In this document: piece by piece, positions 12,277-21,592 of the stretch
Layout: each line of letters begins with the position of its first letter
Numbering within the stretch: position 1 is the first letter of the stretch
Assembly (NCBI RefSeq): GCF_900095265.1
Contig: NZ_LT607651.1
Location: 327,528-391,527 of the forward strand
Source: Janthinobacterium sp. UMAB-56
Lineage (GTDB): Bacteria > Pseudomonadota > Gammaproteobacteria > Burkholderiales > Burkholderiaceae_D
Direction of reading: 5' to 3'
DNA length: 64,000 nucleotides
Position numbers and translations under genes: made by a program
Notes under the pieces: model-generated
Seen by the model: the letters and a program-made list of their open reading frames with translations, nothing else
What the model was told of the DNA's origin: nothing
Database searches by the model: none

Positions 12277-12600
12277 ATGCTTATCTGGCAAGGCTTCGGC
12301 ATACTCGGCCCCCTAATCTGTTTTATCGTCGTACTGGCCGCGCAAGCGCTGTTTGGCGCTACCCTGGGCGAGGCCTACACGAAGAGCCACGCATGGACCA
12401 TGGCCCTGGCCTTCCTGCTGGCAGCGGCCGCCAGCTGGTATGCAGGCGTGCGCCTGAACAGCGCGCCCGGACGCGAACTGATCGACCCGGCCACGCAGGA
12501 ACGCGTGATCCTGCGCCAGCGCCACACCCTGTTCTGGATCCCGATGCAATACATCGCCGTGCTGATGGTCGTGATGGCCGGCTTCGCCCTGTTCGAATAG
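12277..12600 (+). CDS. Small integral membrane protein, unknown function
   Basis: A 107-residue protein with three hydrophobic segments: about 3-26 (GFGILGPLICFIVVLAAQAL), 41-58 (MALAFLLAAAASWYAGV) and 88-106 (IPMQYIAVLMVVMAGFAL). Between the second and third is a charged segment with RELIDPATQERVILRQRHTLFWIP. GGAG lies about 9 nt before the ATG. It lies 47 nt ahead of the MlaE-like permease gene and may be in the same transcript. I do not recognise a named family. Confidence 0.75.
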   Translation: MLIWQGFGILGPLICFIVVLAAQALFGATLGEAYTKSHAWTMALAFLLAAAASWYAGVRLNSAPGRELIDPATQERVILRQRHTLFWIPMQYIAVLMVVMAGFALFE

Positions 12601-12647
12601 GCGCGCACGCCAGACGTGCCCGGCGGACAGACGGATGCTAAGATGCC

Positions 12648-13466
12648 ATGATGACCCCCTTCGTCCCCCTCCTCATCAGCCTGCGCCGCCTGCACCGGAC
12701 CACCATGGCCTGGCTGGTCAGCTGGTGGCGCATGCTGCATTTCGCCATCCTGGTGTTTTCGCTGGCCCTGTCGCCATCGAGCTATAACCGCGACAACCGC
12801 CCCATCCTCGCACACCGCCTGGTCTCGAACACGGCGCCCAACCTGGTGTGGTTCAGCGTCGCCAGTGCACTGGTCAGCCTGGTGCTGATACGCATCGTCG
12901 TCGTCAGCGCGCAAAGCTACGGCCTGTCGCGCTACGCGCTGGAAATGGTGGTGCGCGTGCTGGTGCTGGAACTGATACCGCTGACGGCCGCCCTCTTCGT
13001 GGCGCTGCGCCTGAGCCTGCCCGACGGCATTGCGTTCGCACAAATGCGCTCTTCCGGCATGCTCGATACCATGCAGCGCCAGGGCGTCGACCTGCTGCGC
13101 CGCGAGTACTTTCCGCGCGTCATGTCCGGCATCTTCGCCGTGTGGATGCTGGCCATCGTCAGCTGCGTCACGTCACTGATCCTCGCCTACCTCACCATCT
13201 ACGGTTTCACGCCGTGGGCGCTGCAAGGCTACACGCGCGTGGTGGGACAGATCTTCAATCCCGCCGTGGCCCTGATCCTGATGCTCAAGGTGATTTTCTT
13301 CAGCTTTGCCGTGGCCCTGATCCCGCTTGCCTCCTCGTACTACCCGGACGCGCCGCATGGCAGGCGCAGCGGCCTGTGGGCCGCGCACGGCCTGTCCGAA
13401 ATGCTGCGCCTGTTTTCCGTCATCCTGCTGATCGAAGTGGCTTCGCTGATGGGCAATTATTACTGA
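12648..13466 (+). CDS. MlaE-like ABC transporter permease
   Basis: A 272-residue permease of the MlaE/Ttg2B family, which moves phospholipids or other hydrophobic compounds between inner and outer membranes together with an MCE-domain protein. Five to six hydrophobic segments are visible. The central region DGIAFAQMRSSGMLDTMQRQGVDLLRREYFPRVMSG corresponds to the MlaE family core (usually EI..MR.....DAL..MGVDP...L..PR). It is followed after 55 nt by the MCE gene. No MlaF-type ATPase lies next to it, which is unusual. Confidence 0.82.
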   Translation: MMTPFVPLLISLRRLHRTTMAWLVSWWRMLHFAILVFSLALSPSSYNRDNRPILAHRLVSNTAPNLVWFSVASALVSLVLIRIVVVSAQSYGLSRYALEMVVRVLVLELIPLTAALFVALRLSLPDGIAFAQMRSSGMLDTMQRQGVDLLRREYFPRVMSGIFAVWMLAIVSCVTSLILAYLTIYGFTPWALQGYTRVVGQIFNPAVALILMLKVIFFSFAVALIPLASSYYPDAPHGRRSGLWAAHGLSEMLRLFSVILLIEVASLMGNYY

Positions 13467-13521
13467 TGCCCCGCCGCCACCGCCAGCGATCCCCGAACCA
13501 TCCATACGAGAGCCAGAAGCC

Positions 13522-14553
13522 ATGAGCCAGAGCCAGCCCCCCAATCCCGACCAGGTCGACGTCACGGCGCCCGCCGGTCTCACGCAAGATGCCATCCTGC
13601 CCGCGCCGCCGCCCGTGCGCCACGCCGAACTGAAGGCAGCCATCCTGCTGGTCTTCATGTTCGTGCTGATGGTCGGCTCGGTCGTCTACCTGATGTATGC
13701 GCGCGGCGCCTTCGAAGCCACGCAAACGCTGGTGCTGACGGCCGACGATTCCGACGGCGTCGGCGTGGGCGCCGACCTGACCTTTTCCGGCTTTCCCATC
13801 GGCCGCGTGCAGCGCATCGAGCTGGCGCCCGACGGCCGCGCGCGCGTCATCATCGATGTGCCGAGAAAAGACGCGCACTGGCTGCGCAGCAGCTCCATCT
13901 TCACGCTGGAACGGGGCATCGTCGGCGGCGCCAAGCTGCGTGCCTACAGTGGCATCCTGACGGACCCGCCGCTGCCAGACGACGCCACGCGCGACTTGCT
14001 GGTGGGCGACATGGCGGCGGAAATCCCGCGCCTGCTGGCCGCCGCCAAGGATCTGCTCAACAATGTGGCCAACCTGACGGGCAGCGACTCCGCACTCGAC
14101 GGCACCTTGCGCAATGTGCAGGCCGTGACGGGCAAGCTGAGCGGCCCGGGCGGCGCCATGGGCTTGCTGACGGGCGACGACAAACAGTCGCGCCTGCTGG
14201 TCGAGCGGGCCAACGCCCTGCTGATGACGGCGGACCAGCTGGCGCGCCGCACGGATGGCCTGGTGGCCCATGCCGATACGCGCGTCTTTGGCGACAAGGG
14301 CGTCATGACGGATGCGCAGGCGACTATCGTGCAGCTGAACGCCCTCTTGGCTGACACGCGCGCCAGCCTGAAAAAGGTCGATGCAGTGCTGGTCGAAGCG
14401 CAAGCCGTGGGCGCCAACGCCAGGGCCGCGACTGCCGATCTGGGCCCGCTGCGCGCCGACGTGGAAAGCAATCTGCGCAAGGTCGAGCAACTGGTCAATG
14501 ACATCAACCGCAAATGGCCATTCAAGCGCAATCCGGAGATCACACTGCCATGA
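13522..14553 (+). CDS. MlaD/MCE family substrate-binding protein
   Basis: A 343-residue membrane-anchored protein. A Pro-rich cytosolic tail (1-33) is followed by one TM helix (about 38-60) and an MCE domain (about 68-150) with the family phrase DGVGVGADLTFSGFPIGRVQRIEL. The rest is a long helical region (about 165-335) with heptad-like Leu/Val spacing, which in MCE proteins can form a tunnel or bridge. It should sit in the inner membrane with the MCE ring in the periplasm, working with the upstream permease. Its stop overlaps the start of the lipoprotein gene by ATGA. Confidence 0.88.
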   Translation: MSQSQPPNPDQVDVTAPAGLTQDAILPAPPPVRHAELKAAILLVFMFVLMVGSVVYLMYARGAFEATQTLVLTADDSDGVGVGADLTFSGFPIGRVQRIELAPDGRARVIIDVPRKDAHWLRSSSIFTLERGIVGGAKLRAYSGILTDPPLPDDATRDLLVGDMAAEIPRLLAAAKDLLNNVANLTGSDSALDGTLRNVQAVTGKLSGPGGAMGLLTGDDKQSRLLVERANALLMTADQLARRTDGLVAHADTRVFGDKGVMTDAQATIVQLNALLADTRASLKKVDAVLVEAQAVGANARAATADLGPLRADVESNLRKVEQLVNDINRKWPFKRNPEITLP

Positions 14554-15230
14554 GAAAACGCAATGTCACCTTGTCCTCCCTGGCCGCATTGTTGTGCACT
14601 GCGCTCGCCGCCTGCTCCAGCGGCCCGCCCGTGCCGGACTGGAAAATGAACGCGCATAGCGCGGTCGAACGCTACCAGGCCGCCTACCTGGGCGGCAATA
14701 CCCTGGTCGAGCAGACGGAATTCCGGCGCGCCCGCAGCCAGGTGGCCGGCACGGGCAAGCTCGAACTGGTGGCGCGCATCGAGCTGCTGCGCTGCGCCGC
14801 GCGCGTGGCCAGCCTGGCCTTCGAAGACTGCACCGGTTTTGACGCCCTGCGGGCCGACGCGAATGACGCCGACCGCGCGTATGCGGCCTGGCTGGCCGGC
14901 AAGGCGCAGGCGGCCGACGTCGCCCTGCTGCCAGAAGCGCAGCGGGCGGCAGCCGGCGCCGGCACGGACACGGCCGCCGCAAGCGCCGTGGCGGCCATCA
15001 AGGAGCCGCTGTCGCAACTGGTGGCGGCTGGCGTGCTGCTGCGTTCGGGCCGTGCCACGCCGGCGCTGCTCGATACGGCCGTCGCCACCGCCTCGGACCA
15101 AGGCTGGCGCCGTCCGCTGCTGGCCTGGCTGGGCGTGCAGCGCCTGCGCGCCGAACAGGCGGGCGATACGCAAGCGGCGCAGCACATCGCGCGACGCATG
15201 GCGATCGTGGAGCAGCCGCTGGCCCCTTGA
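14550..15230 (+). CDS. Lipoprotein of the MCE/Mla-like operon
   Basis: A 226-residue lipoprotein: signal peptide MRKRNVTLSSLAALLCTALA with lipobox LAAC, Cys22 being the lipidation site. The mature part is Ala-rich and helical with no family I can name. It overlaps the MCE gene by four bases (ATGA), so it is translationally coupled. By position it could be the outer-membrane lipoprotein partner of the transport system, comparable to MlaA or PqiC in role but not in visible sequence; this is inference from context. Confidence 0.8.
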   Translation: MRKRNVTLSSLAALLCTALAACSSGPPVPDWKMNAHSAVERYQAAYLGGNTLVEQTEFRRARSQVAGTGKLELVARIELLRCAARVASLAFEDCTGFDALRADANDADRAYAAWLAGKAQAADVALLPEAQRAAAGAGTDTAAASAVAAIKEPLSQLVAAGVLLRSGRATPALLDTAVATASDQGWRRPLLAWLGVQRLRAEQAGDTQAAQHIARRMAIVEQPLAP

Positions 15231-15318
15231 GCGCACCGATGACCGGCCCAAGGCAGGCAGAATCAGGCATAATCGAGCCAGGATGACAGCTATGCCGTGC
15301 AGGCAGCGAGGTGTGACG

Positions 15319-16644
15319 ATGCAGTTCGAGGATTTCGACCTTTCCATTCCCGATACCGGCCGGCATGCCGGAGCGGTGCCTGGCGAAGATGCGTCGGCGG
15401 CGACGGCCGTGCGCCTGCAATACCTGCTCGACAATACGCCCTCCATCATCTATTGCACCGTGCCCAGCGGCGACTTCAAGATGACCTTTGTCAGCAACAA
15501 TGCCTTGAATGTACTGGGCTACCAGCCCGAGGAGATGGTGGCCGATCCCAACTTCTGGTTCGACCACATCCACCCCGACGACGCGCCCGGCATCTTTTCC
15601 AGCCTGGCGCAGATCTTCGTCGAAGGCGCGCGCGCCTACGAGTACCGCTTCCGCGTGCGCGACGGCAGCTATCTGTGGATGCACGACAGCCTGCGCCTGG
15701 TGCGCGACGAGCATGGCGTGCCGTTCGAGGTGATCGGTTCGCTGACGGACATCACGGAACGCAAGGGCATGGAAGCGATGCTGCAGGCACGCGGCGAGGA
15801 GCAGCAACTACTGATCAGCAAGCTGCAGGAAGCGCACAACCAATTGCTGCAGTCGGAGAAAATGGCCTCCATCGGCCAGCTGGCGGCCGGCATCGCGCAT
15901 GAAATCAACAATCCGATCGGCTTCGTCAACTCCAACATGAGTTCGCTGCAAGGCTATGTCGGCACCCTGTTCGACGTCATCGCCCAATACGAAACGGCGA
16001 TGCAAGAGCCGCTCGATGGCCCGGCCCTGGCCGCGCACGTGGCACAGGTGCGTGCGCAGGCCGACCTGGGCTTCCTGCAGGACGACATGGTAGACCTGGT
16101 GCGCGAATCGATGGATGGCTTGAAGCGCGTGCGCGACATCGTGCAGGCGCTGAAGGATTTTTCCCACGTGGGCGAGACGGACTGGCAAGTGGCCAGCCTG
16201 CATGCGGGCCTGGACAGCACCCTCAATATCGTGGCCAACGAATTGAAATACAAGGCGCGCATCGAAAAACAGTATGGCGAGCTGCCGCCGATACTGTGCC
16301 TAGCCTCGCAGCTGAACCAGGTCTTCATGAACCTGCTCGTCAACGCGGGCCATGCCATCAGCGGCGAAGGCGTGATCAGCATCCGCACGGGCCACGCGGG
16401 CGACTGGGTGTGGGTGGAAATCGGCGACACGGGCGCCGGCATCGCGCCCGAGCACTTGAACCGCGTCTTCGAGCCATTCTTTACCACCAAGGCCGTGGGC
16501 AGTGGCACGGGCCTGGGCCTGTCGCTCTCGTACGGCATCGTCAACAAGCACGGCGGGCGCATCGAGGTGGCGTCCGAAGTGGGCCAGGGCACGCGTTTTA
16601 CCGTACACCTGCCGCTGCAGCCTCCTGCGGCGCTGAAGGTCTAG
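15319..16644 (+). CDS. PAS-domain sensor histidine kinase
   Basis: A 441-residue kinase without TM segments, so a cytoplasmic sensor. PAS with PAC is at about 35-150 (FVSNNALNVLGYQPEEM, FRVRDGSYLWMHDSLRLV, SLTDITERKG). A short coiled coil follows, then the phosphoacceptor block with His194 in [11 protein letters not shown], and a HATPase with NLLVNAGHA (N box), GDTGAGIAPEH (G1), FEPFFTTK (F box) and GTGLGLSL (G2). The start at 15319 has GAGGTG upstream; ATG 15283 is possible. Its stop overlaps, tail to tail, the stop of the HD-GYP-like regulator. It is a sister of the kinase at 17969. Confidence 0.92.
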   Translation: MQFEDFDLSIPDTGRHAGAVPGEDASAATAVRLQYLLDNTPSIIYCTVPSGDFKMTFVSNNALNVLGYQPEEMVADPNFWFDHIHPDDAPGIFSSLAQIFVEGARAYEYRFRVRDGSYLWMHDSLRLVRDEHGVPFEVIGSLTDITERKGMEAMLQARGEEQQLLISKLQEAHNQLLQSEKMASIGQLAAGIAHEINNPIGFVNSNMSSLQGYVGTLFDVIAQYETAMQEPLDGPALAAHVAQVRAQADLGFLQDDMVDLVRESMDGLKRVRDIVQALKDFSHVGETDWQVASLHAGLDSTLNIVANELKYKARIEKQYGELPPILCLASQLNQVFMNLLVNAGHAISGEGVISIRTGHAGDWVWVEIGDTGAGIAPEHLNRVFEPFFTTKAVGSGTGLGLSLSYGIVNKHGGRIEVASEVGQGTRFTVHLPLQPPAALKV

Positions 16645-17972
16645 GCATCCTTCAGGGGCGCATACACGCGAATGCTGAGACGGCCGCCATTCTTGCCTTC
16701 GAAGTCGAGCAGCTGGGCAATCACGCGGGCTGTCAGCACGTGTTCGGCGGCCAGCAGCATCAGGCCATCGCGGCTGATCAGGTCGCGCGACAGCACCATG
16801 CCCGGTTCCAGCTGGCCAGACAGTACGGTCAGGTCGCGCGCCGGCGGCTCCGTCTCCTCCATGATGCTGCGGAAAGCGGCCACCACGGCCGGATCATAGC
16901 GCTTGCCGACGCTGTCGTAGATCAGGCTGCGGGCCTCCTCGGCGCGCAGGCTGCGCTGCACCATGGCGCCGATCTGCAAACCGTCATAGTCCGATGCCAG
17001 CGCCAGGATGCGCGCGCCCAGCGGTATCGCCAGGCCCACCATGCCATCGGGAAAGCCGCCGCCATCGTAGCGTTCCAGTTGCGAGCGCAGGATCACGGAG
17101 ACGGCGCGCAATTCATCGAGCGCCATCAGCAGCTGTTCGGCGCGCAGCGGGTGCTTGCGGAACGCGGCCAGTTGCTCGCCCGTCCAGGCGCTGGCGGGCA
17201 GTTCCAGCACATCGTCGCTCAGGCTGAGCTTGCCGATATCCTTGAGCAGGGCCGCGATGAGCACGTCGCGCGCCTCCTGCCCTTCCAGGCCCAGCGCCTG
17301 CGCCAGCTTGCGCGCCAGCTCCGCCACCCGCCGCGCATGGCCGACCAGCTTGCCGCCGCGCATCTCGATCAGGTTGGAAAACACCTTGATGGTCGTCACG
17401 AACGTGGCCTTCAGGCGCTCATTGGCCGCCTGCACCTCGTCGTGCGAGTGTTTCAGCTGCTGCGTGCGGGTGGCCACCTTCGCTTCCAGGCTGGCGTTGA
17501 GCGCCTGCAGCTGCACGTTCTGGCTGGCCGTCAGCGCTTCCAGGCGCAATTTTTCCTGCTCCAGCGCGCGCCGTTCCAGCGCGTGGCGCACCACCAGCAC
17601 GATATCGTTCTCGTCCCAGGGCTTGGTCACGTAGCGGTAGATTTCGCCCTGGTTGATGGCGTCGAGGATGGACTGGATGTCGGCATAGCCGGTCAGCAGC
17701 AAACGCATGGTGCCGGGCCAGCGCTGGCGCACCTGGGCCAGGAATTGCGCGCCATCCATGTGCGGCATGCGCATGTCGGAGATGACCAGGTCCACCGTTT
17801 CGCTCTCGAGCAGCGCCAGGCCGGCTGCGCCGCCGTCGGCCGTCAGCACGCGATAGCCGTGCGGGCGGAACAAGCGCCGCAGCGACGACAGGATATTCGG
17901 TTCGTCGTCGACGCAGAGGATGGTGGGCGGCGGCGCCGCAGTGCTGGTATGCATGCTGTCCTGTTCAGTCAT
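16641..17972 (-). CDS. Response regulator with degenerate HD-GYP domain
   Basis: A 443-residue protein in four parts. The REC domain (17-135) keeps D22-D23, phospho-acceptor D66, T94 and K118. A coiled coil spans 136-190, and an HD-GYP-like domain 195-365. A C-terminal module at 386-440 contains LEPGMVLSRDL. In the HD-GYP part His212 and His274 are kept, but the HD dyad is K244-D245, the HHE triad is Q298-L299-E300, GYP is GFP (306-308), and the later metal aspartate aligns with Ser327. Cyclic-di-GMP hydrolysis is therefore unlikely; a binding or allosteric role is more plausible. Last gene of the five-gene operon; ATGA overlap with the kinase before it. Confidence 0.85.
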   Translation of the reverse strand: MTEQDSMHTSTAAPPPTILCVDDEPNILSSLRRLFRPHGYRVLTADGGAAGLALLESETVDLVISDMRMPHMDGAQFLAQVRQRWPGTMRLLLTGYADIQSILDAINQGEIYRYVTKPWDENDIVLVVRHALERRALEQEKLRLEALTASQNVQLQALNASLEAKVATRTQQLKHSHDEVQAANERLKATFVTTIKVFSNLIEMRGGKLVGHARRVAELARKLAQALGLEGQEARDVLIAALLKDIGKLSLSDDVLELPASAWTGEQLAAFRKHPLRAEQLLMALDELRAVSVILRSQLERYDGGGFPDGMVGLAIPLGARILALASDYDGLQIGAMVQRSLRAEEARSLIYDSVGKRYDPAVVAAFRSIMEETEPPARDLTVLSGQLEPGMVLSRDLISRDGLMLLAAEHVLTARVIAQLLDFEGKNGGRLSIRVYAPLKDA

Positions 17973-19450
17973 GGTGCGACGGCCTGCGCCTGGCGCACGG
18001 GCAAGGTGATGCGGAAGGTGGTGCCGCGGCCGATGACGCTGCGCACGTCGATGCGGCCATGGTGCTTCTGCACCGTGGTGTAGGCCAGCGACAGGCCCAG
18101 CCCCGTGCCCTTGCCGACAGCCTTGGTGGTAAAGAAGGGATCGAAGATGCGCGACAGGTGTTCGGGCGCGATGCCGCCGCCCGTGTCCTCGACCTCGATC
18201 CACACTTCCGTCGCATTGTCGCTGCCCGTGCGCAGGGTGATGCGTCCGCGCGCCTCGCCCATGGCGTGGGCCGCATTGACGACCAGGTTCATGATCACCT
18301 GGTTCAGTTCGGAAGGCTGGCATTCGATATCGGGAATGTCGCCATACTCGCGCAGCACATCGGCCTTGTACTTGACCTCGTTATTCACGATATTGAGCGT
18401 GGTATCGATGCCCAGGCGCAGGTCGGCCCAGACCCACTCCTGCTGCGCATCCGTGCGCGAAAAATCCTTCAAGTCCTGCACGATGCGGCGCACGCGCGAA
18501 ATGCCTTCCTTCGACTCGCCCATCAGCAACGGTATGTCGCTGCGCAGGAAGTCCAGGTCGATCTGTTCGCGCAGCGCGCGCAGGCGCGCCGCCACCACGG
18601 TGTCGGCGACGGCCGGCTCGGCTTCCTCGTAGGCGTCGAGCATGCTGAACAGATCGTCCAGATAGCCTTCCAGGGTGCCGACATTCGAAAACACATAGCC
18701 GATGGGGTTGTTGATCTCGTGCGCCACGCCGGCGGCCAGCTGGCCGATCGAGGCCAGCTTTTCCGACTGCAACAGCTTTTGCTGGGCCACCGACAGCTTG
18801 CTGTTCAGTTCCGTCAGGGCCAGGTTGCGTTCGCGTAATTCACGGTCGGCAATCTGGCGCTGGCGGATATCGTCGGCCAGGCGCCCGTTCATTTCGGCCA
18901 GCTGGGCCGTGCGCTCGGCCACCAGGTGTTCCAGGTTGTCGTGCGCCTTGCGCAGCGCCAGTTCCGCAAGGCGCCGCTCGCTCACGTCGCGCAGGGTTTC
19001 GATGGCGCCCACCAGGCGCCCTTGGCGGTCGCGCAGGGGCGCCGCCGTGAAATGCAGCCAGTGGCCGTCGCGGCCGATATCGGCAAAGAAATCCTCGGCC
19101 TCGTAGGCGCCGGGAATCACGGGCGAGCGCTGCAGCTTGCCGATATACAGTTCATTTTCGCCCAACGCGATATCGTCGGCCACCAGCAGGTCGGCCAGGC
19201 AGGCGCGCGGCTGCGGATAGAAGGCCTTCCAGTGATCGCGCGTGCCGACCATCTCGGCGGCCGTAAAACCCAGCAACTGTTCGCAGGCACTGTTCCAGTG
19301 CGTCACCACATGGTCCGTATTGATGGCGAAGGTGGCCACGGGATGGCCATCGAAGAAGGCCGACAGCGCGATGGAATCGGTGTGGCGGCGTTCCGGCGTG
19401 GCGGGCAGCGCCTGCCCTGCGTCTGTTTCCATGGCCTCTATCCTGTTCAT
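17969..19450 (-). CDS. PAS-domain sensor histidine kinase (sister of 15319 gene)
   Basis: A 493-residue cytoplasmic kinase. PAS/PAC is at about 28-160 ([35 protein letters not shown]). A coiled coil spans 165-225, and His244 lies in [12 protein letters not shown]. The HATPase has [28 protein letters not shown] and GTGLGLSL. From the coiled coil onward it closely parallels the kinase at 15319 ([24 protein letters not shown]), so the two arose by duplication; their PAS domains differ, suggesting different inputs. ATGA overlaps join it to the HDOD gene before it and the HD-GYP-like regulator after it. Confidence 0.92.
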
Positions 19451-20286
19451 GCCAGCATGATCCGCGACATTTCATCGAAGGTGTGTTCGGTCTGACGCAA
19501 CAGCGCAAACCAGGCTTGCTCGTCCAGGACCAGGCTGCGCCAACCCGCAAGCGACAGGGGCGGCACCAGCGCATCGTCGGCACCGGCCAGGTCGAGCGCC
19601 AGGGCGACGGCATTGGCCATATGCACGACCAGGGGCAAGCCGCCCGCCTCCAGCCGGTCGATGGCGTGGTGGTCGGCCACCGCCTGCTGTATCGCTGCGG
19701 GGAACTTCCAGTAGGCGGCCAGGGCACTGCCCACTTGCGCATGATCAATGCCGATGACGGCCAGTTCCGCCTCGGCCATCTGGCAGTCGTGCGCCTGGCG
19801 GTAGTTGCGCACCAGCGCATGCTCGGCGGGGAAGCGCGTCACCAGCACCAGCGTGCCCAGGTCGTGCAGCAGGCCGGCCGTAAAAGCGGTCTCGGGATTG
19901 ATGTGCAAATGCGGTGCCAGCAGGCGCGCGGCGATGGCCGTGGCCAGCGAATGGCGCCAGAAGGCCTGGAAATCGAAGCCGCCGTTCACCGGCGCGAAAC
20001 TGCCCGTCAGGGCACAGGCCGTGACGACGGTGCGGATGCTGTGAAAGCCCAGCACGGAAACGGCTTGCGGAATGCTGGTGACCTTCGATTGCATGCCGTA
20101 GAACGAAGAATTGGCGATGCGCAAGGTCTTTGCCGCCAAGGCCTGGTCCAGTTCGATCTTTTGCGCCAGCACATGCACGTCCGTATCATCCTGGTCCATG
20201 CTCGACAGCAGTTCCAGCACGACCACCGGCAGCGAGGGCAATTCCTGTATCTGGCGGATGATGTGTTCAAAACTGAGCCGTGTCAT
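19447..20286 (-). CDS. HDOD domain signalling protein
   Basis: A 279-residue protein made almost wholly of an HDOD domain (about 8-210), with LPSLPVVVLELLSSM near the start, KTLRIANSSFYG at 54-64 and an intact HD pair at His141-Asp142 in GLLHDLG. HDOD proteins are usually non-enzymatic or of unknown activity and work next to two-component or cyclic-di-GMP circuits. There is no TM segment. It sits in the middle of the five-gene overlap chain, between the small module protein and a histidine kinase. Confidence 0.9.
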   Translation of the reverse strand: MTRLSFEHIIRQIQELPSLPVVVLELLSSMDQDDTDVHVLAQKIELDQALAAKTLRIANSSFYGMQSKVTSIPQAVSVLGFHSIRTVVTACALTGSFAPVNGGFDFQAFWRHSLATAIAARLLAPHLHINPETAFTAGLLHDLGTLVLVTRFPAEHALVRNYRQAHDCQMAEAELAVIGIDHAQVGSALAAYWKFPAAIQQAVADHHAIDRLEAGGLPLVVHMANAVALALDLAGADDALVPPLSLAGWRSLVLDEQAWFALLRQTEHTFDEMSRIMLA

Positions 20287-20615
20287 GCCCCGCTCCCTTG
20301 CCGGTAGCGCTGCAGCAGCGCCAGCAGTTCCGCCCCCGCGGAGTCGGGAGGCGTGGCGCGGAACAGCACGGCCAGCCGTGCCAGGCGGTGCAAGCGTTCC
20401 TGCTCGGCATGCGCCTGCGCGGCCGGGTCAGTCACTTCTTCGGCGACGATGTGGCAGCGCTCCACATTGCGCCTGCGCAAGGCAGTCAGATTGGCTGCCG
20501 TCAGGATGGCGCCCTGGGCCAGCAGCACGGCGCCGCCGGCGTCGCTCAGCACCCGCGCCAGCACCATGCCTTCCTGTGCCTCTTCCATGGAAATTTCGCG
20601 TCCGCTTTCACTCAT
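20283..20615 (-). CDS. Small stand-alone module protein of the signalling operon
   Basis: A 110-residue protein. Residues 9-60 read like the C-terminal module of the HD-GYP-like regulator in the same operon: EEAQEGMVLARVL, then a Gly turn, VLLAQGAILTAANLTAL and a closing basic/hydrophobic strand. The rest is a His/Arg-rich helix. I take it as a free copy of a module often found beside HD-GYP domains; biochemical function unknown. The start at 20615 overlaps the stop of the REC-PAS gene by ATGA, and its own stop overlaps the HDOD start the same way. Confidence 0.75.
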   Translation of the reverse strand: MSESGREISMEEAQEGMVLARVLSDAGGAVLLAQGAILTAANLTALRRRNVERCHIVAEEVTDPAAQAHAEQERLHRLARLAVLFRATPPDSAGAELLALLQRYRQGSGA

Positions 20616-21454
20616 GTGTCCGCCCCATGACGGCTCAGCGTGACCAGGCTGCCGCGCGAGCGCGAATGCAAGCCCATGGGATGGACCGCCACGGCATAGG
20701 GCTGGCCATCGATGGCAGCCAGGCAAGGTGCGCCCTGCCCGTCGAACAATTGCGGCAGGACCAGCACCGCCTCGTTGCCCAGCAGGGCCGCGCCGCGCTC
20801 GAAGAGGTTTTCCGCCGCCGCGTTGATGAAGGCGATCATGCCGTCCTCGTCGAGTCCGATCACGGGCAGCGGCAGAAATTGTAGTAATTCGCGCGCAATG
20901 CCGAGGCTGACTTCGTCGCGGCTGATCTGATGCTGCTGCTGGCGCAGCAGCGCCTGCATGGCGGCATTGGCGGCCGCCAGCGCATGGTTGGCATCGCGCA
21001 GCTGTGCATTCAGGCGCACATTGTCATCGTCGATACCCTTCAGACGGAAGGCTTCGGCGATATGCTCGCGCAGCTGATGGTCTTCCCAGGGCTTGGTAAG
21101 GAACTTGAAGATGGCGCCCTCGTTGACGGCGTCCGTGACGGCCTGCAACTCGGTATAGCCCGACAGCATGATGCGTATGGTTTGCGGATACAGCAGCTTG
21201 GCCTTGCGCAGGAAGTCGGCACCCAGCATGCCGGGCATGCGCTGGTCCGACACGATCACGTCGACCGCATGGCCGGCCAGCACGTCCAGCCCTTCCTGGC
21301 CGCTGTTGGCCGTGAGGATATGGTAGGCATCGCGCCGCAGCAGGCGCTTGAGGGAAGCGAGGATATTCGGCTCGTCATCGACCAGCAGCAAGGTACGCGG
21401 CTGCGTCGCCGGCACCACAGTGCCTGGCATACCATGCTCATCGTGCACGTCCAT
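20612..21454 (-). CDS. Response regulator with C-terminal PAS domain
   Basis: A 280-residue protein and the first gene of the five-gene operon. REC (about 20-140) has D26-D27, phospho-acceptor D70, the LSGYTE switch region and K in FLTKPW. A helical linker follows at 145-180, and a PAS-like domain at about 185-270 (LPLPVIGLDEDGMIAFINAAAENLFERG). There is no DNA-binding or enzymatic output domain, so output must be through protein contact. Both regulators in this island share the REC subtype VDDEPNIL.SL...P....TKPW. Confidence 0.88.
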   Translation of the reverse strand: MDVHDEHGMPGTVVPATQPRTLLLVDDEPNILASLKRLLRRDAYHILTANSGQEGLDVLAGHAVDVIVSDQRMPGMLGADFLRKAKLLYPQTIRIMLSGYTELQAVTDAVNEGAIFKFLTKPWEDHQLREHIAEAFRLKGIDDDNVRLNAQLRDANHALAAANAAMQALLRQQQHQISRDEVSLGIARELLQFLPLPVIGLDEDGMIAFINAAAENLFERGAALLGNEAVLVLPQLFDGQGAPCLAAIDGQPYAVAVHPMGLHSRSRGSLVTLSRHGADT

Positions 21455-21592
21455 CGGACCATCCTCTCATCGCCACGGCGATACGGGAGCTTGCCTGGAG
21501 CGGGAATCTGCGGCGCGAGAGATTCTTGCGCGGCAGCCAGCTTGCGTAGAAATTATACGACTAAATATTCCTGTATGGCATTTATCCGGCAC

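Follow-up and report, generated by a model that had tools for sequence, protein, structure and literature searches.

A conserved signalling operon of Janthinobacterium without an intact c-di-GMP enzyme domain of known type

Janthinobacterium sp. UMAB-56 (NCBI RefSeq assembly GCF_900095265.1) encodes a compact island of six signalling genes, here called A to F, at positions 15,319 to 21,454 of the 64,000-nucleotide stretch that we analysed (contig NZ_LT607651.1, positions 327,528 to 391,527; hereafter the window). A is a REC-PAS regulator, B a small module protein, C an HDOD protein, D and F are PAS histidine kinases, and E joins a receiver to a degenerate HD-GYP domain. The REC-PAS/HDOD/kinase/E cluster is a real, conserved operon. 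With it, the genus holds a form of a multi-regulator two-component circuit of the cyclic diguanosine monophosphate (c-di-GMP) type in which no c-di-GMP enzyme domain of a known type is intact. With moderate confidence, we read the island as a branched two-component circuit that descends from a c-di-GMP-controlling module and in which, in Janthinobacterium, A and E serve as phosphorylation-switched binding proteins acting on C. A published description of this operon was not found in the open-access literature.

Conservation and composition of the island

Three sets of relatives were compared. The family draw covered 116 genomes of the GTDB family with a threshold for A of more than 200 bits; A was found in 38 of these genomes at 39 places, and 38 places beyond the window's own were fetched. 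The named loci are a sample by similarity, the best 80 of at least 592 confirmed candidates, among which the nearest relatives of A are those of J. violaceinigrum (94%) and Janthinobacterium sp. 344 (82%). The class draw covered 369 genomes; A is matched at E ≤ 1e-60 in 28 of them, counting the window's, and 19 loci were used. Neighbourhoods were counted only at loci that have 3.5 kb or more of sequence downstream of A (32 family-draw, 73 named and 19 class-draw loci). Three pairs among the counted loci have the same A region (L063/L092, L065/L095 and L132/L174).

Given in the order family draw, named loci and class draw, an HDOD gene lies near A in 30/32, 63/73 and 14/19 loci, a kinase in 30/32, 70/73 and 17/19, and E in 30/32, 61/73 and 11/19. 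All three occur near A in 28/32, 54/73 and 8/19. C is marginally the most constant non-kinase neighbour. As a background, the window's 6.1 Mb genome contains 16 HDOD matches at E ≤ 0.001, among them one in the HD domain of E and another below the family cut-off. The recurrence of the REC-PAS/HDOD/kinase/E neighbourhood across the family argues that the island is no chance cluster. The original prediction had proposed to search for it in other Oxalobacteraceae, and would have been abandoned had related genomes not conserved it; they do, as the 28 complete family-draw loci illustrate, and the distribution extends beyond Oxalobacteraceae to named and class-draw loci.

The island is built from paralogues, as originally predicted. 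The catalytic halves of kinases D and F are identical at 147 of 265 positions and their sensor halves at 43 of 167, and receivers A and E are identical at 52 of 118. The interface regions are also alike (32/48 in the first DHp helix of D and F, 14/22 in the helix 1 region of the receivers). These identities point to two inputs and probably shared outputs, and the pairing of two kinases with two receivers suggests a branched two-component circuit. A Pfam scan of the six proteins, with matches accepted to an E-value of 0.1, found no DNA-binding domain, in line with the predicted lack of a DNA-binding output. It also found neither an Hpt domain nor a hybrid kinase among the six, and we therefore reject the phosphorelay-like character that had been proposed. 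Hybrids do exist in relatives, as the frame of A also matches a kinase in the named loci L096-L098.

Enzyme domains of receivers A and E

In many relatives, A is fused to the C-terminus of EAL or GGDEF-EAL domains (30/38 family-draw and 48/80 named loci). It stands alone in all 19 class-draw loci (EAL fusion 0/19), one of which has a separate EAL gene close by. Pfam searches of ten relatives' A frames placed an EAL domain before REC in nine, four of these with GGDEF over the cut-off, and found no EAL in L071. Ten EAL active-site positions are intact in 49 of the 78 fused A proteins, altered in 25 and gapped in four. Neither the island nor the seven other Janthinobacterium loci contain an EAL domain. 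In a tree of A built with a quick method, the eight Janthinobacterium rows (Shimodaira-Hasegawa-like approximate likelihood ratio test, SH-aLRT, 100) are nested in a 21-row clade (99), and the other 13 rows of this clade are all EAL- or GGDEF-EAL-fused. Given this nesting, Janthinobacterium most likely dropped the EAL part of A.

Judged by sequence identity, the EAL part has probably not moved elsewhere in the genome. The best EAL match in the window's genome to a relative's fused EAL reaches 47%, against 57-88% for the fused EALs of the six best-scoring relatives, and on this basis we rejected relocation, short of a strongly diverged copy. A third small receiver, G, lies near A in 21/32 family-draw, 36/73 named and 4/19 class-draw loci. 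It has no close match in the window's genome; the best is just 40% identical and sits in a 996 aa EAL frame, which led us to reject a move of G as well. In two relatives (L054:13771-17397 and L060:2786-5500), A has a CHASE or protoglobin sensor ahead of its GGDEF-EAL part, indicating that the input side varies.

E belongs to the NosR family by score, as it matches the NCBIfam model NF053512 over residues 18-436 with 570.6 bits (cut-off 400). It is the sole protein above this cut-off among 119 matches in the genome. The receiver of A matches the first part of the same model (1-164 of 422) with 191.7 bits, and B matches its end with 20.6 bits (E-value 1.9e-4). Profile comparison with hhalign pairs B with the C-terminus of E at 96.5% probability, and five other segments of E at 0.1-1.8%. 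By this comparison, B is a free-standing relative of the E C-terminal module, a likeness that the original prediction lacked.

The HD-GYP domain of E was scored at seven positions that are metal ligands in HD-GYP structures and were mapped by alignment. E reads HKDHQLD against the canonical HHDHHHD and thus keeps four of the seven; position 244 is K and positions 298/299 are Q/L, which bears out the predicted degenerate HD-GYP. All eight Janthinobacterium loci, the window's included, share the string HKDHQLD. Within E, positions 244, 298 and 299 lie at the 45th-66th conservation percentile. The ligands of E are intact in 11/11 scored class-draw loci, the other 8 of 19 being without a scored E; since A stands alone there, E may have been the enzyme of an older form. 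Four gamma-proteobacterial loci (L137, L139, L142 and L143) have A alone with a degenerate E; in L143 a GGDEF-EAL frame lies on the opposite strand. Janthinobacterium is thus not alone in having neither A nor E with an intact enzyme.

The NosR score of E raises the question of a nitric oxide circuit like those built on NosP/NosR or H-NOX, which we judge highly improbable in spite of that score. The six proteins contain no FIST or H-NOX domain in Pfam, and the genome has 0 HNOB matches at E ≤ 0.001. Its single FIST gene lies on another contig (C12), beside a REC-HD-GYP frame of its own. Furthermore, the island kinases carry PAS domains, unlike NosK, which has no recognised sensor domain in the available excerpt of PMC12570481 (here and below, published systems are described from excerpts of the cited articles). 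Nitric oxide sensing by the island was therefore rejected. The FIST locus itself (L077, C12:86547-87116 and around) is a separate NosP-like locus unlinked to the island, and its adjoining REC-HD-GYP frame has HD, HHE and GYP motifs.

The lost EAL part, the lost HD-GYP ligands and the missing G would all fit a decaying remnant in which loss of both enzyme parts means loss of function. We give this very little credence, because none of the six frames is disrupted and purifying selection acts on all of them throughout the genus, even on the HD domain of E. The ratio of non-synonymous to synonymous substitution rates (dN/dS), computed by the Nei-Gojobori method with our own script between the window and seven other Janthinobacterium, is 0.08-0.23 for A, 0.09-0.21 for C, 0.11-0.21 for D, 0.07-0.21 for E and 0.09-0.20 for F. 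It is 0.07-0.165 for the degenerate HD domain of E and 0.27-0.40 for B. These low values indicate that the island is kept and is not decaying.

The HDOD protein and the output of the circuit

HDOD domains usually lack the full HD-type ligand set, which is the usual state and not a strictly defining one. C matches the Pfam HDOD model with 195.9 bits (cut-off 22.9) and keeps the set as H112, H141, D142, H182, H206 and H207 (H/HD/H/HH), which had escaped the original prediction. All six are intact in 88/118 orthologues (two gapped) versus 4/30 control HDODs (four gapped). The controls comprise seven from the window's genome and 23 from an order draw; 33 were tried and three without an aligned frame were dropped. 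The set is intact in 7/8 Janthinobacterium, L043 having Q at position 206. At the seventh position, 56 orthologues have D and 44 have N, and all eight Janthinobacterium have N. The solved HDOD structure 3hc1 has the same kind of residues in the alignment and 3m1t does not. Based on these alignments, C likely binds metal in Janthinobacterium. On the opposing side, 22 loci have a degenerate E and no intact EAL on A, and 14 of the 21 among them with a C gene keep its ligands intact. The window's genome also encodes a paralogue of C (L001, C3:543740-544312) that is 49% identical and has the incomplete ligand set HHNHYL.

It had been claimed that the output must be protein contact. This goes too far, as C retains HD-type metal ligands and could be enzymatic. 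C may thus be a catalytically active, metal-dependent phosphohydrolase that serves as the output enzyme, and E the pseudoenzyme that partners it, a possibility that we regard as unlikely. The contrast between orthologues and control HDODs argues for it, as does the conservation of the six ligand columns (86th-95th percentile within C, against the far lower values of the three E positions), and an HDIG metalloprotein model matches 27/28 C orthologues scanned. However, HDOD domains are described as non-catalytic (PMC6543031), the seventh position is N throughout Janthinobacterium, H206 is lost in L043 and several ligands are lost in four Duganella relatives, and the ligands may hold a structural metal. 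If true, this unlikely scenario would amount to a role swap within one operon, with the HDOD protein as phosphohydrolase and output and E regulating it through contacts that depend on phosphorylation. In that case, the REC-PAS/HDOD/kinase core would be a signalling chassis of wide occurrence that gains and loses c-di-GMP enzymes.

We favour the branched circuit in which A and E act by binding, and build it on the observed anatomy and conservation of the island, the loss of the EAL part and of E ligands, and purifying selection. Kinases D and F, which differ in their PAS sensors, would phosphorylate receivers A and E, as the shared operon, the paralogy and the similar interface helices suggest. 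Relatives often carry EAL on A, or an intact HD-GYP on E; the output of the forerunner was therefore probably c-di-GMP turnover, by analogy with the Hno network. There, phosphorylated A would have controlled its own EAL domain, and a degenerate E may have been a partner or brake, much as HnoD acts on HnoB. HnoK/HnoS, HnoB and HnoD are a precedent for combining two kinases with an EAL receiver and a degenerate HD-GYP one (PMC6335343), and HnoD inhibits HnoB (PMC8846402, PMC6335343).

With the EAL of A gone and the ligands of E lost, A and E would act in Janthinobacterium as binding proteins that are switched by phosphorylation. C is the target that we consider most likely, and they would contact it with the help of B. 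As B repeats the end module of E, it may compete with or replace that module. C may then be the surviving output of the circuit. E itself is predicted to be inactive, and the physiological output could be motility or biofilm formation.

Several observations weigh against this reading. C is not seen near A in 2/32 family-draw, 10/73 named and 5/19 class-draw loci, and each of four Duganella relatives (L081 and L083-L085) has lost several C ligands. The Duganella/Rugamonas loci L081 and L083-L086 have an altered or gapped EAL and yielded no E; these loci are another stripping of the same circuit, and four of the five have altered HDOD ligands too. The fused EALs of some close relatives have diverged (53% for L086, of the same clade, with L045, L081 and L083-L085 not among the 40 matches listed), so that the 47% match alone is no proof against a displaced, strongly diverged EAL.

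The scoring of E ligands in 106 rows over all draws adds a further point. Where A is fused to EAL or GGDEF-EAL, E is degenerate in 36 rows, intact in 12, without its last ligand only in 10 and gapped in two. Where A stands alone, E is degenerate in 15 rows, intact in 21 and without its last ligand only in two. Four rows combine A with a separate EAL gene and an E that has lost its last ligand, and four further rows are truncated or otherwise arranged. The raw counts are suggestive of an enzyme swap in which EAL fusion drives the decay of E, but with ancestry allowed for there is no association, in a test that has no power (0-2 informative pairs of 6, mostly opposite; p 0.5-1). We thus rejected the swap and make no claim that EAL fusion caused the decay of E or vice versa.

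The island could also still control c-di-GMP in trans, with A and/or E binding phosphodiesterases or cyclases encoded elsewhere and inhibiting or activating them, as HnoD inhibits HnoB. We consider this possible but rather doubtful. The genome encodes two long frames with an EAL domain and an A-like receiver, one on C3 (996 aa, 59%) and one on C5 (1212 aa, 45%), and degenerate HD-GYP regulators with such roles have been described in the excerpts of PMC12570481, PMC8846402 and PMC6335343. Against it stands the absence from A of the forerunner's own EAL part, and no gene-level connection of the island to these two frames emerged, although no search aimed at one was made. The frame on C3 (C3:293735-296239) has receivers near both ends as well as EAL; the 59% identity refers to its last receiver, and it is a possible partner in trans.

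The operon bears on the functions of both HDOD and degenerate HD-GYP domains. Related bacteria provide a natural series with EAL fused and HD-GYP degenerate, with an altered EAL, and with no EAL and a degenerate HD-GYP. This series lets one ask what phosphorylated receivers do without an attached c-di-GMP enzyme. As C has its ligands in place, HDOD catalysis is testable on one purified protein, and the interest would be higher should C prove to be an enzyme.

Gene layout and relation to known systems

The predicted arrangement of five minus-strand genes joined by four ATGA overlaps, with a convergent kinase whose stop overlaps that of E, agrees with coordinates and sequence (Table 1). Outside the island, 0/30 same-strand neighbour pairs in the window have a 4-base overlap, as counted in a rough set of 53 genes, some perhaps spurious, with 32 same-strand neighbour pairs. 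This set misses the small module gene B, and two of the four island overlaps are thus not in it. In neighbour pairs of relatives, the overlap recurs in 25/46 (A/B), 38/46 (B/C), 20/73 (C/D) and 49/69 (D/E) cases, and in 8/59 (A/C) and 3/21 (C/E) where these genes were scored as neighbours. The overlaps suggest translational coupling only, and the proposal that the proteins are made in fixed proportion does not follow from them. A scan of the region for promoters and terminators gave results near chance level. F starts 88 bases past a plus-strand frame (14514-15230) that itself follows MlaE and MlaD genes (window 12277-15319), and F might therefore be read through from a lipid-transport operon.

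Table 1. Genes and sequence features of the island, in window coordinates.
Feature	Position	Strand	Basis or remark
Gene A, REC-PAS regulator, 280 aa	20612..21454	minus	Pfam REC and PAS
Gene B, small module protein, 110 aa	20283..20615	minus	No Pfam domain; apparent kin of E C-terminal module
Gene C, HDOD protein, 279 aa	19447..20286	minus	HD-type ligands H112, H141-D142, H182, H206-H207
Gene D, PAS histidine kinase, 493 aa	17969..19450	minus	Pfam PAS and kinase
Gene E, REC and degenerate HD-GYP, 443 aa	16641..17972	minus	Pfam REC and HD_5; NosR NF053512 match
Gene F, second PAS histidine kinase, 441 aa, convergent paralogue of D	15319..16644	plus	Pfam PAS and kinase
ATGA overlap A/B	20612..20615	minus	Read from sequence
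ATGA overlap B/C	20283..20286	minus	Read from sequence
ATGA overlap C/D	19447..19450	minus	Read from sequence
ATGA overlap D/E	17969..17972	minus	Read from sequence
CTAG, overlapping TAG stops of E (minus) and F (plus)	16641..16644		Read from sequence
Sigma-70-like promoter match, 10/12, weak	21552..21581	minus	About 100 bases upstream of A; 2 in region, 1.2 expected

Four published systems resemble parts of the island. SadB is also an HDOD protein and a reported c-di-GMP binder (PMC6543031). The excerpt of that article gives it a YbaK-like domain and names no receiver partner for it, and C instead keeps HD ligands. The predicted eight-gene operon VC1080-VC1087 of Vibrio cholerae, which we liken to the island by description, encodes an EAL regulator (VC1086) and an HD-GYP regulator without the HD dyad (VC1087), according to the excerpts of PMC4441509 and PMC4212101. 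The Burkholderia NosP-NosK-NosR system is linked to the island by the NosR score of E and by an HD-GYP that is degenerate in both (PMC12570481). Its nosRPK operon, as excerpted there, is without an HDOD, REC-PAS or module gene, and the island is without the FIST sensor and has PAS kinases.

The H-NOX network of Shewanella oneidensis (HnoK/HnoS, HnoB, HnoC and HnoD) had already been named as a likeness. The string HKDHQLD of E fits this comparison, and the H-NOX sensor itself is not found in the genome. The island further differs, by description, in having no DNA-binding receiver and in its extra HDOD and module proteins. The EAL receiver of the Hno network is shared by many relatives of the island and is absent in Janthinobacterium. 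Both systems, as far as the excerpts of PMC6335343 and PMC8846402 describe the Hno proteins, combine two kinases and several receivers with one degenerate HD-GYP protein.

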